DNA of 64,000 nucleotides, from contig CAJJAH010000001.1 in the NCBI GenBank assembly GCA_905182255.1, forward strand, positions 1 to 64,000, read 5' to 3'. Made by a program: the position numbers and the translations under genes. The notes under the pieces are model-generated. The model worked only from the letters and a program-made list of their open reading frames with translations, was not told where the DNA came from and made no database searches. The DNA comes from Cryomorphaceae bacterium BACL11 MAG-121001-bin54 (GTDB lineage: Bacteria > Bacteroidota > Bacteroidia > Flavobacteriales > BACL11). Position 1 is the first letter of the stretch. Each line of letters begins with the position of its first letter. Of this stretch, positions 57,273 through 64,000 are shown piece by piece.

Positions 57273-60049
57273 ATGACTAAAAAACAAATAAGTAGTTCCG
57301 ATAATATTGTGATTAGAGGCGCACGCGTGCACAACCTTAAAAACATCTCAATTAACCTCCCAAAAGACAAGCTAATTGTTATTTCTGGAGTATCAGGTAG
57401 TGGTAAATCGTCATTAGCCTTTGACACTTTGTTTGCTGAAGGGCAAAGACGCTACATTGAAAGCTCTATCTTCATATGCCCGTCAATTCCTTGGAAAATT
57501 ACAGAAACCAGATGTAGATGAGATACTTGGAATTTGCCCTGCAATTGCTATTGAACAGAAAACAACTACCAATAATCCTAGGTCAACCATTGGTACAAGT
57601 ACCGAAATATACGATTATCTGAAACTCCTGTTTGCTAGAGTGGGGAAAACAATTTCACCAATTTCAGGAGAACAAGTAAAACGCCAACAAGTAAGCGATG
57701 TTGTTGACTTTATTACAAAACAGAAAAGAGAAGAAACGGTAATTATATCCGCTAACTATAATGGGGAGAGAAAACAGCAGCATTCTTGCTAGCTTTAAGG
57801 CAACAAGGTTTCTCTCGTATAATATATCAAGGACAAGTAACGAAAATAAAAGACTTACTTAAGAATGAAACAAAGGTATCAAATAGTAATATACAAGTTG
57901 TAATTGATCGTATAATTATTAATGACACAGATATTGAAGCTAGAATTGCTGATTCTGTACAAACTGCCTTTTTTGAAGGAAATGGAGAATGTAATATTTT
58001 AATCCAATCAAAAAAATTACCATTTCTCTAATAAATTTGAATTGGACGGAATACAATTTGAAAAACCAACCACTCATTTTTTTGCATTCAATAATCCTTA
58101 TGGAGCTTGTCGTAAGTGCGAAGGTTTTGGATCCATTCTTGGCATTGACAAAAAGAAAGTAATAATTAATGAGAAACTTATCTGTTTATCAAGGTGTTGT
58201 ATGCTGTTGGGGTGGTGAAAAGCTAAGTAAATGGAAAGAACGATTTATTATTCGTTCCTCAAAATTTGATTTCCCAGTACACAGACCATACAATGAGCTA
58301 ACAGAGGAAGAAAAAGATATCCTTTGGGACGGAAAAGGAAAGTGTAAAGGAATACATCAGTTTTTCCAGAAATTAGAAAGCCAAAAATATAAAATACAAA
58401 ACAGAGTTCTTATTGCTAGATATAGAGGAAAAACAAATTGTGATGAATGTGATGGATCCCGTTTAAGAAAAGACGCTCTATATGTAAAAGTTTCAGGAAA
58501 AAGTATAGCTGATATTATAAAGATGAATATTGAACAAGCACTTTTATTCTTCAAAGGCATAAAGCTAGATACTAATGATCATAAAGTTAGTCAGAGACTA
58601 ACACAAGAAATCACAAGCAGATTACACTATTTAAATGAAGTGGGACTGAGCTATCTTACATTAGATAGGAAATCAAATACGTTATCAGGTGGAGAGTCTC
58701 AAAGAATTAATCTTGCTACTTCTATTGGAAGCTCATTAGTAGGCGCCATGTATATATTAGATGAACCAAGTATTGGATTACATTCCAAGGATACTGAACG
58801 ACTTATCAAAATATTGAAAGAACTAAGAGATATTGGCAATACAGTTATAGTTGTTGAGCATGATGAAGAAATAATGGAACAGGCTGACCAAATTATTGAT
58901 ATTGGCCCTAAAGCAGGAATTCATGGTGGAGAGATTATTTTCCAAGGAAAATTAAAAGATATTTATAAAGAGAGAAAAAGCTTAACCACTCAATATCTTG
59001 CTGGAAAATTAGAAATTGCTGTTCCTAAGAAAAGAAGAAGAAATAAAGACAGTATTATTATTGATGGAATTAAGAAACACAACCTAAAAAATATAAGTAT
59101 TAAGTTTCCTTTAAACGGACTCACTTTAATTACTGGGATGAGTGGTTCAGGAAAATCTACATTAGTAAGAGATGTATTAAAACCAGCTTTAAATACACAC
59201 TTTGGAAATTTTAGCAAAAAAAATAAGAATTACGAAAATATAAGCATCAATACAAAAAACCTAACTAAATTGGAGTTTATTGACCAAAACCCTATTGGAA
59301 AATCGTCAAGATCTAACCCTGCAACTTACATAAAAGTATATGATGATATTAGAAAACTTTTTGCTAGACAACCTTTAGCTGAAAATAGAAAATACAAAAT
59401 AGGGTTCTTCTCTTTTAACGTTGAAGGTGGTAGATGTGAACAATGTAAAGGGGAAGGAGAAACAACTGTAGAAATGCAGTTTATGGCAGATGTGCATTTA
59501 GAATGTGAACACTGTAAAGGTAAGCGTTTTAAAAAAGAAATATTAGAGATAAAAGTTGGAGATAAAAATATATCGGATATCTTAAACTTATCCGTTTATG
59601 AAGCTATTGAGTTTTTTGAAAGCAATAATGAAACAAGTATTGCACGAAAATTAAAGCCCTTACAAGATGTTGGATTGAACTATATAAAACTTGGGCAATC
59701 CTCCAATACATTAAGTGGTGGTGAAGCGCAAAGAATAAAATTAGCTTCATTTTTAGGCAAAGGAAATACGCCTGAAAAAACATTATTTATCTTTGATGAA
59801 CCAACTACAGGTTTACATTTTCATGATATAAATAAACTTCTTAATTCCTTTTATGCACTTATTGATAAAGGCCATTCAATAGTTTGCATTGAACATAATT
59901 TGGATGTAATAAAATGTGCTGATTGGATAATTGATCTCGGTCCTGAAGGGGGTGACAAAGGAGGGGATATTATATTTGAAGGAACACCTGAAGAAATTGT
60001 AAACTGTAAAGAATCAATTACTGGACAGTTTCTTAAAAAGAAACTTTAA
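57273..60049 (+). pseudogene. uvrA: Excinuclease ABC subunit UvrA, frame-disrupted
   Basis: A UvrA of about 925 residues whose frame changes four times: near 57461-57468 (ESS then [10 protein letters not shown]), near 57763-57766 (G4 run; resumes AAFLLALRQQGFSRI), within the A7 run at 58010-58016 (resumes YHFSNKFELDGIQFEKP), and near 58174-58181 (INEKL then SVYQGVVCCWGGEKL). From 58169 to 60049 the frame is clean. Both ABC modules are recognisable: Walker [16 protein letters not shown] and GMSGSGKSTLVRDV, signatures LSGGESQRI and LSGGEAQRI, and zinc-finger pairs CRKCEGFG, CDECDGSR, CEQCKGEG and CEHCKG. UvrA recognises bulky DNA lesions with UvrB. Likely sequencing error; if real, nucleotide excision repair would be lost. 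Confidence 0.9.
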
Positions 60050-60062
60050 TTCTTTATTATGT

Positions 60063-60098
60063 AAAAGAAAGGCCGAGTATATACTCGACCTTTCTTTT
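60063..60098. terminator. Bidirectional terminator between uvrA and the secreted-protein operon
   Basis: A long hairpin: AAAAGAAAGG then CGAGTA pairs with TACTCG then CCTTTCTTTT, with one C/A mismatch and a two-base loop (TA). It is A-rich on one flank and T-rich on the other, so it can stop both uvrA (+) and the minus-strand operon. Confidence 0.8.
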
Positions 60099-60124
60099 AA
60101 TTTTAATATTATTTAAAGGTTACA

Positions 60125-60679
60125 CTAATATCCAAAAACATATCCGACACCAATCTGTATAGAAGAGTTTCTTATACTGGCATCCTGAATCATATCTGTA
60201 AAGGCTAATCCATATCTCAAGTCAAGATGTAACAAATCATTAATATTATATATTGCTCCAAAATTGGATCCAAATTCAATTCTATTAAATTGATCCCATT
60301 CAGTAATACTTTCATCATCTGATGTTCCACTTGAAAGATAACCTAAGTAAGGACCTATAGATATGGCAAACTCATCATTAATATGAAAAAGACCATTAAC
60401 ACCTAAATCAAGGTAATTTACCAAAACTGACCCATCCCCACCATCTTCTTTCGCTCCTTTTTGATGAAAGAGAATCTCAGGCATCCATTCAATATTTCCT
60501 TCTCCAAGCTTCATAAAAGCACCAAAAAAGAAACCAGTTCTTGAAACAGAGTTTAAATCGTCTGAGTCAGCACCTACAAAGTCAGTAATTGCAGCTCCTC
60601 CTTTTAACCCAAATGATTGCGCAGATATATTTGAGACTAAAAAGAAAGAAAGTACTATTATTATATATTTTTTCATCAT
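60125..60679 (-). CDS. Outer-membrane beta-barrel protein (PorT/OMP_b-brl_2-like)
   Basis: A protein of 184 residues. Signal peptide (about 1-20, ending NISAQ), then an eight-stranded barrel: SFGLKGGAAITDFVG at the start is the standard opening of this Bacteroidota family, followed by alternating hydrophobic strands (FFFGAFMKLG, IEWMPEILFHQ, DLGVNGLFHI, FAISIGPYLGYL, RIEFGSNFGAIYNI, LDLRYGLAFTDM) and the C-terminal SIQIGVGYVFGY ending in an aromatic. Last gene of the operon beginning beyond the right edge, 12 bases after the LpoB/CsgG-like gene. Function unknown. Confidence 0.88.
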   Translation of the reverse strand: MMKKYIIIVLSFFLVSNISAQSFGLKGGAAITDFVGADSDDLNSVSRTGFFFGAFMKLGEGNIEWMPEILFHQKGAKEDGGDGSVLVNYLDLGVNGLFHINDEFAISIGPYLGYLSSGTSDDESITEWDQFNRIEFGSNFGAIYNINDLLHLDLRYGLAFTDMIQDASIRNSSIQIGVGYVFGY

Positions 60680-60691
60680 ATTATTTTAAAC

Positions 60692-61783
60692 TTAATCCAT
60701 ATTAATCCAATTGATATTAGTTGGCTGCTGGTTTTCACCAAAAGCAACTCCAACATCTCTTACAGCTTTTATAGCTTGTTTTTCAAGTTCAACATTATCA
60801 CTTTGTACTTTAACCTTGAAGTCCCACTCTCTATCCTCATCAGCTTTAAGCTTAGCCTTAATCTCATTACCTAATGCCATTGCTTCTTTATAACATTTTG
60901 AATCAGAAGCAACTTCACCCAACCATCTTCCTGCATCTCTTGAATTACCAGAAGACCAAGCACCTTTTGCTTTACCTAATGCAACAGCGCACCTATGATC
61001 TTCAATCTCTTTTAATAATGATTGTGCATCAGAATAACAACTAACATCTGGCAAAATTCCTGCCAAATAACTAGCGGCTAAATCATAATCATCTTTTGCT
61101 TTTGCAGCTCTTGCATCAGCAATATTCTGCATACACTCATTTTCCATCTTTAGCTTAAAAATAGTAACAGCGACATCCTTACCTTTAATATAACAATCTT
61201 TACAAACATCAGGTATAGACATAACTGTATAAATAGCCTCATCAAATTCCTTCCTTCCAGCTAATGACTCAGCATCTTTTAATATGAAATCGCATTGTGA
61301 ATTATAATATTCAACAATTTTATCTTTACCATCTTGAATAAAAGTTTTAACTTCTGGTCGCTTGTAATTAAGCATCTTTAAAGCACCAACATATGCTTTA
61401 GTTGGATTTTTCCCAACACCTTTTAATGGAATTGTAGTTGATGAGAAAATTGTTTGAGTAACATTATCTGCAATATAAAGTGTTATATCCAAATTATAAG
61501 CATGCATAGGTGGTGCAGTAGCTGTAATATCCTGACTCATAATTGATACATGAGGATACATAATAAATCTATTACCAGCACTAGCCATTCCATTCTTACT
61601 AGCAATCTGACCCATTTTATTTAATAATATTCTCTCAGCAGCTAAAGGCATATCAGGTATACTACCTACAACAGGAGCTATTGCTATTCTAGCTACATCA
61701 TCCGATTTTCCTAAATTATTTTGAGCTTTTACACTAAAGCATACAAAGAATAAAGCAACAAGTATTGATTTAATAATTTTCAT
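60692..61783 (-). CDS. Secreted LpoB/CsgG-like protein with a Cys-spaced helical C-terminal region
   Basis: A protein of 363 residues with a signal peptide (about 1-20, ending SVKAQ). The N-terminal half (about 28-155: RIAIAPVV..., AERILLNKMGQIA, FIMYPHVSIMSQDITATAPP, LDITLYIADNV, STTIPLKGVG) resembles the CsgG/LpoB-type alpha-beta domain. The C-terminal half is helical with regularly spaced Cys (DVCKDCYIKG, NECMQNIADARAA, VSCYSDAQSLL, HRCAVALGKAKG, KCYKEAMALG), suggesting TPR-like hairpins, perhaps cross-linked. No lipobox is visible. In the operon it follows the DUF6175 gene by 24 bases. The domain match is my own reading, not a profile result. Confidence 0.65.
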   Translation of the reverse strand: MKIIKSILVALFFVCFSVKAQNNLGKSDDVARIAIAPVVGSIPDMPLAAERILLNKMGQIASKNGMASAGNRFIMYPHVSIMSQDITATAPPMHAYNLDITLYIADNVTQTIFSSTTIPLKGVGKNPTKAYVGALKMLNYKRPEVKTFIQDGKDKIVEYYNSQCDFILKDAESLAGRKEFDEAIYTVMSIPDVCKDCYIKGKDVAVTIFKLKMENECMQNIADARAAKAKDDYDLAASYLAGILPDVSCYSDAQSLLKEIEDHRCAVALGKAKGAWSSGNSRDAGRWLGEVASDSKCYKEAMALGNEIKAKLKADEDREWDFKVKVQSDNVELEKQAIKAVRDVGVAFGENQQPTNINWINMD

Positions 61784-61807
61784 ATTTATTTATTTTTATT
61801 TTTTATT

Positions 61808-62764
61808 TTATTTATGACCTATCCATAAAGTAAGCTGACCTAAACCCTCATTTTCTGCCTTAGCTTCCAAGCCTATTTCTTTTAGTTTATCGCGTAAGTC
61901 TTTACCTAATCTTCTTACATCATAAGCTCTTTCTCTACCTTTAGAATTTACGTAAAATAAAGGAATTCTAACCTGCTCAAAAAGCATCATATTTTCTGTA
62001 GCATCAGTAAGATTAAATACTCCATTTACTGTCAAGTCTGACATCCAGTCTTCTATTGATATACCTAACTCATCATCACCATAATCTTCAGTTTCCAAAT
62101 CTTCTCCCCAATCATCCCATACCTTTACACGAACAACAACTTCTCTTCCATTTATAAACATGTCGTCAAAATAAGACATTAAAGTAGAATTAAAATTATC
62201 AAGATGTGCCAAAACAGCTTCTTGCATTAATTCTGGAGTTGATCCAGAAGAAGGCTCTCCATTCCCAGTAGCAGTAGCGACCTGTTTATCTGTATAAGCA
62301 TCAAGTCCTTGTAAAGTAAACTGAATAGAAGATTTAGGACCTTTCTTGTTTACATTGTAAGTGATCTGCATCCAAATATCAGCTTTAGCAACTTTTTTTA
62401 ATTCATCAGTAGGACTTGAGCTAACGCTTCCTCCAGTTTTAGATGACATACGCATATTATCATCAGCAGCTTGTTTCTCCAAAGTTTTTAATGCACTTTC
62501 TAGGTTTTTTAAAGGAAAACCTCTTTCTCCCATCATTCCATTTATTTGAGCGATTACTTGAAGTAAAGTAGGATCAGATTGCACGGCTTTTTTATAATCA
62601 GGGATACGTACTATTGTTCCTTGATTATTAAACTCTTGCATAAATCCATTTTGATTACACCAAACATCACTAGGCACAATCATGATTGTCGGTTTTTTTG
62701 CTTTCTGCGCAAGCGCTGCAAAACTAAATAATGCTATAAATATAGCTAAAGTAATTTTTTTCAT
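61808..62764 (-). CDS. DUF6175 family secreted protein
   Basis: A protein of 318 residues. Signal peptide (about 1-19, ending AALAQ), then KPTIMIVPSDVWCNQNGFM, the opening typical of DUF6175, an ADIWMQITYNVNKKGPKSSIQFTL segment, a repeated acidic stretch (VWDDWGEDLETEDYGDDELG), and RIPLFYVNSKGRERAYDVRRLGKDLRDKL near the C-terminus. Family function unknown; members co-occur with CsgG/LpoB-like genes in Bacteroidota. Separated by 4 bases from the upstream small paralogue. Confidence 0.75.
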   Translation of the reverse strand: MKKITLAIFIALFSFAALAQKAKKPTIMIVPSDVWCNQNGFMQEFNNQGTIVRIPDYKKAVQSDPTLLQVIAQINGMMGERGFPLKNLESALKTLEKQAADDNMRMSSKTGGSVSSSPTDELKKVAKADIWMQITYNVNKKGPKSSIQFTLQGLDAYTDKQVATATGNGEPSSGSTPELMQEAVLAHLDNFNSTLMSYFDDMFINGREVVVRVKVWDDWGEDLETEDYGDDELGISIEDWMSDLTVNGVFNLTDATENMMLFEQVRIPLFYVNSKGRERAYDVRRLGKDLRDKLKEIGLEAKAENEGLGQLTLWIGHK

Positions 62765-62768
62765 TGTT

Positions 62769-63245
62769 TTATTGTTTTAATATATTATCTGTGATTAATT
62801 TTTGTCTAATTTCCTCAACTTTTACACGTACTTTAATGCCATAAGAGGTTTGTTTTCTTGATTTCTTCAATGATTTGGGAGATTTCTCAATAGAAATATA
62901 ATCCTTGTAATCAGAATTAAAAAAAGAATACACGTAACTCTTGTATTTTGTAGAAGCATTAACTTCTATGATTAATGGGCGCATCTGACATCCTTTATTT
63001 ATACCTTTAAATAAAATATCGTTAAGTACATTACGTTTTGCCTGGTCAATTGCTTCAGATTTACTACTTCCCTTTCCCCATGCTTGTAAAATAAAACTAC
63101 CATCCAATTTATCCTCTAAACATTCTGTTTCAACACCATAGTAGCTTGCTGTTTTCTTTTGTTTATTGAAAACCTGTCCAAAAACAGGAACGGAAACTAA
63201 AGTTATGATAGCTAGAATTGTGATTTTATTTATAATTTTTTTCAT
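62769..63245 (-). CDS. Secreted LPP20-like small protein (paralogue 2)
   Basis: A protein of 158 residues: signal peptide (about 1-23), then SFILQAWGKGSSKSEAIDQAKRNVLNDILFKGIN with a helix containing the A-x-x-x-AKRN-x-x-x-DILFKG pattern, a Cys pair (GCQM), and a basic C-terminal helix (VRVKVEEIRQKLI). The same arrangement recurs in the next gene upstream, AIEAAKRNAVHGIIFKG...GGRC. The motif recalls the LPP20/lipoprotein-type helix found with CsgG systems, but no lipobox is seen. Eleven bases separate the two. Confidence 0.68.
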   Translation of the reverse strand: MKKIINKITILAIITLVSVPVFGQVFNKQKKTASYYGVETECLEDKLDGSFILQAWGKGSSKSEAIDQAKRNVLNDILFKGINKGCQMRPLIIEVNASTKYKSYVYSFFNSDYKDYISIEKSPKSLKKSRKQTSYGIKVRVKVEEIRQKLITDNILKQ

Positions 63246-63256
63246 AATTTAAATAT

Positions 63257-63778
63257 TTAGAATCTTGATCCCAAGCCTTTAATAATACCAGCAGCCTCTA
63301 AATCTTTTCTTAATAAAGATACGTTAACCGATACGTTTACTCCAACTTTAAATTCCTTTTTACTAACTTTAGTTACATCTCCAGCTTCAATAGCTCCATC
63401 TGTAGATGCTACAACAAATTTAGAGTACTTACCTCCGTTTGCAAAGAAATCTTTAAAGAAATCAGCTTTTTCTTGTTCTAAATTTGCACTTCTAGCAAGA
63501 GCAGGTTTATTAACGCATCTTCCTCCAGAAATACCTTTAAAGATAATCCCATGAACAGCATTTCTTTTTGCTGCTTCAATCGCAACTTTAGGTTTTTTTG
63601 AATATGAAAATACTTTAATTGCATAAGTACCTTGCTTCCCTTCACCAATACACTCAATTTCATACCTAAAATTATGAGTGTCTTTTTTTGATTTTTTCTT
63701 ACTAAACATCTGAGCACTTGAAGAGAAAGATGCAATTAGTAATACTGCCACTAATATTGATTTTATTTTTGTTTTCAT
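63257..63778 (-). CDS. Secreted LPP20-like small protein (paralogue 1)
   Basis: A protein of 173 residues. Signal peptide (about 1-22, ending SFSSSAQ), basic KKKSKKD segment, then YAIKVFSYSKKPKVAIEAAKRNAVHGIIFKGISGGRCVNKPAL, the same core as the neighbouring paralogue, and a C-terminal VNVSVNVSLLRKDLEAAGIIKGLG. A hydrophobic interface and a conserved FKG-turn suggest packing against the CsgG/LpoB-like neighbour; this is inference. The partial gene upstream lies 16 bases away. Confidence 0.68.
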   Translation of the reverse strand: MKTKIKSILVAVLLIASFSSSAQMFSKKKSKKDTHNFRYEIECIGEGKQGTYAIKVFSYSKKPKVAIEAAKRNAVHGIIFKGISGGRCVNKPALARSANLEQEKADFFKDFFANGGKYSKFVVASTDGAIEAGDVTKVSKKEFKVGVNVSVNVSLLRKDLEAAGIIKGLGSRF

Positions 63779-63794
63779 AGTTTGTTTTTTTAAA

Positions 63795-64000
63795 TTATTT
63801 TTTTTGTCTGATTAATAAGCCTGCATAATACTTCTTTTTACAACCTTTGAAATGAGTAGCCTGAATTTTTATTTCACCTTCAATTACTGGAGGATCAGAT
63901 GCATAAAATTGATTATCCCAAATATTTTTTTTGTCAATTTTTATAGTACCAATTGACTTATACTCTGTTAGACCTTCTTTATTTACAAACTGTTCAAGAA
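63795..64000 (-). CDS. Partial protein, upstream end of the operon
   Basis: The right edge cuts this minus-strand gene; 68 C-terminal residues remain, beginning LEQFVNKEGLTEYKSIGTI. It ends QATHFKGCKKKYYAGLLIRQ plus two lysines, with a single Cys and an alternating hydrophobic pattern. No family is recognisable from the fragment. Its stop lies 16 bases from the next ATG on the same strand, so it belongs to the same transcript as the five downstream secreted-protein genes. Confidence 0.6.
   Translation of the reverse strand, partial: LEQFVNKEGLTEYKSIGTIKIDKKNIWDNQFYASDPPVIEGEIKIQATHFKGCKKKYYAGLLIRQKK

Follow-up and report, generated by a model that had tools for sequence, protein, structure and literature searches.

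Organization of the locus

At the right end of the window, by which we mean the whole stretch of 64,000 nucleotides that was analysed, lies a minus-strand operon of which five genes are complete and a sixth is represented by its 3' end. The genes, labelled A to F, and the associated terminator are as follows:

63795-64000, minus strand: 3' end of gene A, coding for a secreted protein with the predicted fold of the FlgT middle and C-terminal domains; the full gene runs beyond the window
63795-65126 of the same contig (G000:C1:63795-65126, equivalent to L017:7795-9126), minus strand: gene A in full, 443 aa
63257-63778, minus strand: gene B, 173-aa small secreted protein
62769-63245, minus strand: gene C, 158-aa paralogue of B (BLASTP)
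61808-62764, minus strand: gene D, 318-aa DUF6175 protein (Pfam)
60692-61783, minus strand: gene E, 363-aa protein with a CsgG-type alpha/beta domain and a BamD-like TPR half (structure model)
60125-60679, minus strand: gene F, 184-aa outer-membrane beta-barrel (OMP_b-brl, Pfam), an optional member
60062-60099, minus strand: intrinsic terminator hairpin with a 17-bp stem, common to the operon and a convergent uvrA-like gene

The intergenic gaps from A to F are 16, 11, 4, 24 and 12 bases, and the terminator hairpin has a folding energy of -24.4 kcal/mol as compared with -8.2 in shuffled sequences (z -6.6); the six minus-strand genes with gaps of 4-24 bases and a strong terminator, described in an earlier note made from the letters of the window, are confirmed in their coordinates. 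A hydropathy check finds a hydrophobic N-terminal export signal on every product from A to F, in agreement with the signal peptides which that note had assigned to the five complete products, and the sequence past position 64000 shows the first gene to be complete, with a secreted 443-aa product. A ruvX-like gene is located 139 bases upstream of gene A.

The convergent uvrA-like gene (57273-60049, plus strand) has its first ~900 bases split into several frames with the remainder intact (open reading frames at 57273-57521, 57421-57792, 57786-58031, 58042-58218 and 58169-60049), reflecting either sequencing indels or a decaying gene.

Conservation and distribution of the gene set

A search with DUF6175 alone in named genomes recovered at least 497 relatives, and 80 loci were kept; these represent Cellulophaga, Aquimarina, Aequorivita, Flavobacterium, Psychroserpens, Bacteroidales, Prevotellaceae and many uncultured Bacteroidota. 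Genes A and B are adjacent to each other and ahead of D in 78 of these 80 DUF6175-fetched loci, D and E are adjacent in 79 of them, and the loci without one or other pairing are contig ends or variants; the median gaps within the A-B and D-E loci are 16-19 bases, and C adjoins B in 33/79 loci. The neighborhood of the DUF6175 gene and the small paralogues, whose conservation the earlier note had proposed checking, is thus one in which the genes travel together, and by computation the A-B-(C)-D-E genes are one inherited module. In loci from other families (L019, L047-L049, L051-L053 and L055) the place of A is taken by a CsgG/LpoB-family protein of ~275-315 aa, and the partner of DUF6175 in the deepest branches is an LPP20-domain protein.

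A barrel is a recurrent but optional neighbor of the operon: F-type barrels adjoin it in five loci, in seven E is directly followed by a member of another family of small secreted proteins that look barrel-like by eye, and overall small barrels or barrel-like proteins sit beside E in about ten. The product of gene F does match OMP_b-brl in Pfam, in line with its earlier reading as a barrel, but the set does not regularly include it. The flanks differ by lineage, and among the loci examined the recurring flanking genes offer no functional hint beyond lineage-specific ones.

The distribution of DUF6175 is patchy, with carriers forming 13/296 genomes of the phylum sample and 16/395 genomes of the order, and none of the other 13 genomes in the window's genus carries it. 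Of the 395 genomes of the order, 15 encode full-length E and seven an A-type protein, all of them within the 16 D carriers (hypergeometric P 3e-26 and 4e-11 respectively, both overstated because related genomes are not independent). The sole E outside the D carriers is a 50-position remnant with two stop codons (G311:C13:11086-11235), an apparent case of module decay in that lineage.

Several loci depart from the common arrangement. Two Flavobacteriales genomes contain a second, divergent A-B-C set directly after E (L088:7814-9589 and downstream, and L097:10010-12824), consisting of a 589-591-aa A-like protein and two small B/C proteins, with no second D or E. In Flavobacterium amnicola the operon is preceded by an F-like barrel and an additional A-like gene of 543 aa (L084:3339-5706), and L107 and L114 have two A-like genes each. 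The whole operon is also present on short contigs labelled Proteobacteria (L057, whose DUF6175 protein is 85% identical) and Cellvibrionales (L076), and both are probably Bacteroidota contigs placed in the wrong bin.

Domain structure of the D and E proteins

Two fused chains were modelled, D+E from the window and A+B from the nearest relative (L057, whose A is 79% identical to that of the window). The fusions exploit a shared reading frame, with the TAA between the genes read as glycine to give one chain, and the alignments, of 22 and 18 rows, were read likewise; the linkers are artificial, and we claim no contact between the joined proteins. Mean pLDDT values are 75.9 and 74.4, and pTM values are 0.40 and 0.59. 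Composite sequence profiles have no credible direct match in the PDB, and matches of profile A4 to ribosomal eL14 (E 0.002) were judged to be chance.

The product of gene D is a full-length DUF6175 protein (PF19672; 366.7 bits against a cut-off of 23, spanning profile positions 1-293 of 293), as the earlier note had it. The Pfam entry gives no function, and the open literature searched, subscription papers being outside that search, has no mention of DUF6175 and no function described for this combination of genes, as the earlier note had supposed. In the model, D has a CsgG/PelC/TolB-N fold at residues 22-204 and a second alpha/beta domain at ~207-315. D matches CsgG (6lqh) with Z 11.2 over 136 residues, and residues 23-196 superpose on a subunit of the PelC dodecamer (Z 10.4, 2.5 A over 109 residues); DUF330, HpaA, FlgT and TolB are further structural matches. 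At the level of profiles, D matches the CsgG/LpoB-like first-gene family of related operons at 95.5%.

The first domain of E matches the Caulobacter lipoprotein 4kwy (Z 9.1) and, by profiles, the C-terminal domain of the LPP20-domain protein that accompanies DUF6175 in the deep branches (94.8%). Its second half superposes on BamD (Z 10.8, 2.5 A over 102), a comparison in which helical repeats score high easily. Computation therefore places a CsgG/PelC/TolB-N-type domain in each of D and E, with an added TPR half in E. In E, cysteines C164, C197, C217 and C297 are retained by 93% of 29 relatives. Structure prediction, which the earlier note had suggested for the CsgG/LpoB relation, does find the CsgG fold.

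Gene A has the FlgT middle and C-terminal layout

Most of gene A lies outside the window, and its relation to FlgT was not part of the earlier note. The best Foldseek matches of the A+B model are FlgT (3w1e, E 1.8e-6) and a chain of the LPHT ring (8z5n, E 1.9e-6), with the next match at 0.037. VIA comparison of A with FlgT structures gives Z scores of 8.8 and 8.2, which at 8-9 are modest and come with an rmsd of 11 A across two domains. The match spans model residues 25-438 and corresponds to the FlgT middle (CsgG/TolB-N-like) and C-terminal domains; it starts just past the signal peptide in the model (residue 25-26) and at residue 95-119 of FlgT, such that A is without the N-terminal SHS2 domain of FlgT.

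The first genes of related operons give sequence evidence in the same direction. When that family is compared by sequence with the PDB, FlgT is the top match (E 0.0014), followed by CsgG (0.0027), and Pfam finds LpoB in 9/9 of these genes (best E 7.3e-10), CsgG in 8/9 and FlgT_C in 3/9 (best 2.1e-4). The window's own A has no match to Pfam LpoB (PF13036), and the profile link between the A family and the CsgG/LpoB first-gene family is weak (55%). Structure prediction, profiles and Pfam together assign the layout of the FlgT middle and C-terminal domains to A, or to the CsgG/LpoB-family protein that replaces it. To our knowledge, FlgT-type proteins are known only from flagellar motors. In the open literature searched, FlgT and Bacteroidetes are mentioned together in one paper, which deals with another subject.

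The small proteins B and C

BLASTP aligns B with C at E 8.7e-11, making them paralogues, and both contain the core A-x3-AKRN-x4-I(I/L)FKG that the earlier note had picked out. Their designation there as LPP20-like was dropped, as it finds no support in either Pfam, where LPP20 (PF02169) is not listed among matches with E up to 10 for 45 members, or the comparison of the B/C and LPP20 profiles (6%). Iterated HMMs joined DUF6175 to the B/C family, and we treat this merger as an iteration artefact because profile comparison gives it no support. The predicted order of elements in B, as modelled within the A+B fusion, is strand-strand-helix-insert-strand-strand-helix, and is compatible with an SHS2 fold of the FlgP type, in which a helix packs on a three-stranded sheet. 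In FlgP, an insert between the helix and the second strand of the SHS2 fold is linked to ring formation (PMC12222027). A lipobox is present in 16 of 33 C copies and in none of the window's own proteins, its C copy included; because half of the copies carry it, many of them are likely to be anchored to the outer membrane by a lipid.

A candidate outer-membrane-anchored ring

Fold assignments and gene linkage support the earlier view of an envelope complex with CsgG/LpoB-type parts. We propose that A-B-(C)-D-E are parts of a single non-flagellar periplasmic ring or scaffold, anchored at the outer membrane and built from CsgG/FlgT-type domains, and give this reading a probability of about 45%; the folds and linkage are computed, and we infer oligomerisation, anchoring and client. 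A, D and E would oligomerise into a ring through their CsgG/FlgT-type domains, and lipidated B/C copies would anchor the assembly at the outer membrane's inner leaflet. The TPR arm of E could dock a client, either a peptidoglycan enzyme or an outer-membrane barrel, F for instance. The ring might then work as does the Vibrio H-ring (FlgO/FlgP/FlgT) or PelC, around another envelope structure. FlgH, the flagellar L-ring protein, is found in 1/18 operon-carrying genomes (the window's own genome being only 53% complete) and is detected in three control genomes. We therefore rejected a flagellar origin for the operon, and if the H-ring comparison holds, the ring serves something non-flagellar in the 17/18 hosts without FlgH. 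Against the ring reading, a shared fold shows no function, TolB-N having the fold without a known ring, and no recurrent flanking gene, client or phenotype points to it. The missing FlgT N-domain of A, the modest VIA scores and the lack of a lipobox in the window's own proteins also count against it.

Rather doubtful is an extension of this proposal in which FlgT is split in a non-flagellar relative of the H-ring, with its middle and C-terminal domains in A and the SHS2-like part in B/C, and the whole, extended by DUF6175 and the TPR subunit, would be a widespread outer-membrane ring machine of Bacteroidota for a trans-envelope structure.

Among the alternatives, the LpoB matches in all nine related-operon first genes and the TPR half of E, which could be a binding arm, would suit a set of LpoB-like outer-membrane activators that reach through the peptidoglycan and switch on cell-wall synthases. 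We consider this unlikely: four or five proteins exceed what LpoB/LpoA need, no penicillin-binding protein recurs in the flanks, and the LpoB and CsgG models score alike, so the match is at the level of fold. The superposition of D on PelC suggests instead a PelC-like accessory role in polysaccharide or glycan export, with a ring that would guide the polymer to an outer-membrane pore. A TPR protein beside a barrel recalls PelB, and roughly ten loci have barrels or barrel-like proteins by E; yet the operon is without a barrel at most loci and the flanks have no recurring glycosyltransferase or exporter gene, making such a role improbable.

The earlier note had also considered a secretion pore with chaperones. 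CsgG ranks high among the structural matches of D, but a CsgG-like pore with periplasmic helpers is very improbable, as none of A, D and E shows CsgG-type membrane hairpins: in the predicted models of D and E short turns join the strands where these would sit, and the insert of A is an Ala-rich amphipathic helical hairpin whose best 19-residue hydropathy is <= 1.4; a pore formed through it was rejected, since it is not membrane-spanning by hydropathy. CsgF is absent from 12/18 hosts; in the other six it lies outside the operon and always accompanies a full-length CsgG. The chaperone idea finds no support. We give the least credence to an envelope-stress sensor coupled to two-component regulators, also raised earlier, as kinase- or regulator-like genes do adjoin L021, L052 and L055, from three different families, but only about six of ~95 loci have such neighbors, the other flanks are varied and unrelated, and no sensor or signalling domain is found in the gene set.

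The ring reading and the assignments beneath it tie DUF6175 to fixed partners and to ring-forming folds, both proposed here. With partners and fold assigned, DUF6175 is now testable in culturable Flavobacteriaceae (Cellulophaga, Aquimarina, Aequorivita and Flavobacterium).

Comparison with known systems

The operon has no meaningful PADLOC match as a defence system. It resembles the CsgG curli channel in the alpha/beta periplasmic fold of D and E and in the Pfam CsgG match of the first gene in related operons, and differs from it in that no membrane hairpins are seen in A, D and E and several hosts have the true csgG as a gene apart from the operon. A curli assignment was rejected, CsgF and full CsgG being separate genes where present, and neither CsgE, CsgF, CsgA nor another Csg partner family is found among the operon proteins. 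Likeness to the PelC, TolB N-domain, GNA1162 and DUF330 lipoproteins lies in the superposition of D on PelC and of E on 4kwy; unlike these, D has a second domain and E a BamD-like TPR half, and no pel or tol genes are seen nearby.

The Vibrio H-ring consists of the outer-membrane lipoproteins FlgO and FlgP and the periplasmic FlgT, and helps the flagellum to cross the outer membrane (PMC7990780). The operon differs from it in that 17/18 hosts tested are without a flagellum as judged by FlgH, A lacks the FlgT N-domain, no sequence match ties B/C to LPP20/FlgP, and no H-ring counterpart is known for either the TPR protein E or D with its two domains. Like the H-ring, it has the FlgT middle and C-terminal domains, in A, and several secreted partners with small lipoproteins, on the outer-membrane side of the periplasm. 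That the layout of FlgT, or of its close structural relatives, is found in bacteria mostly without flagella is relevant to the origin of flagellar accessory rings.
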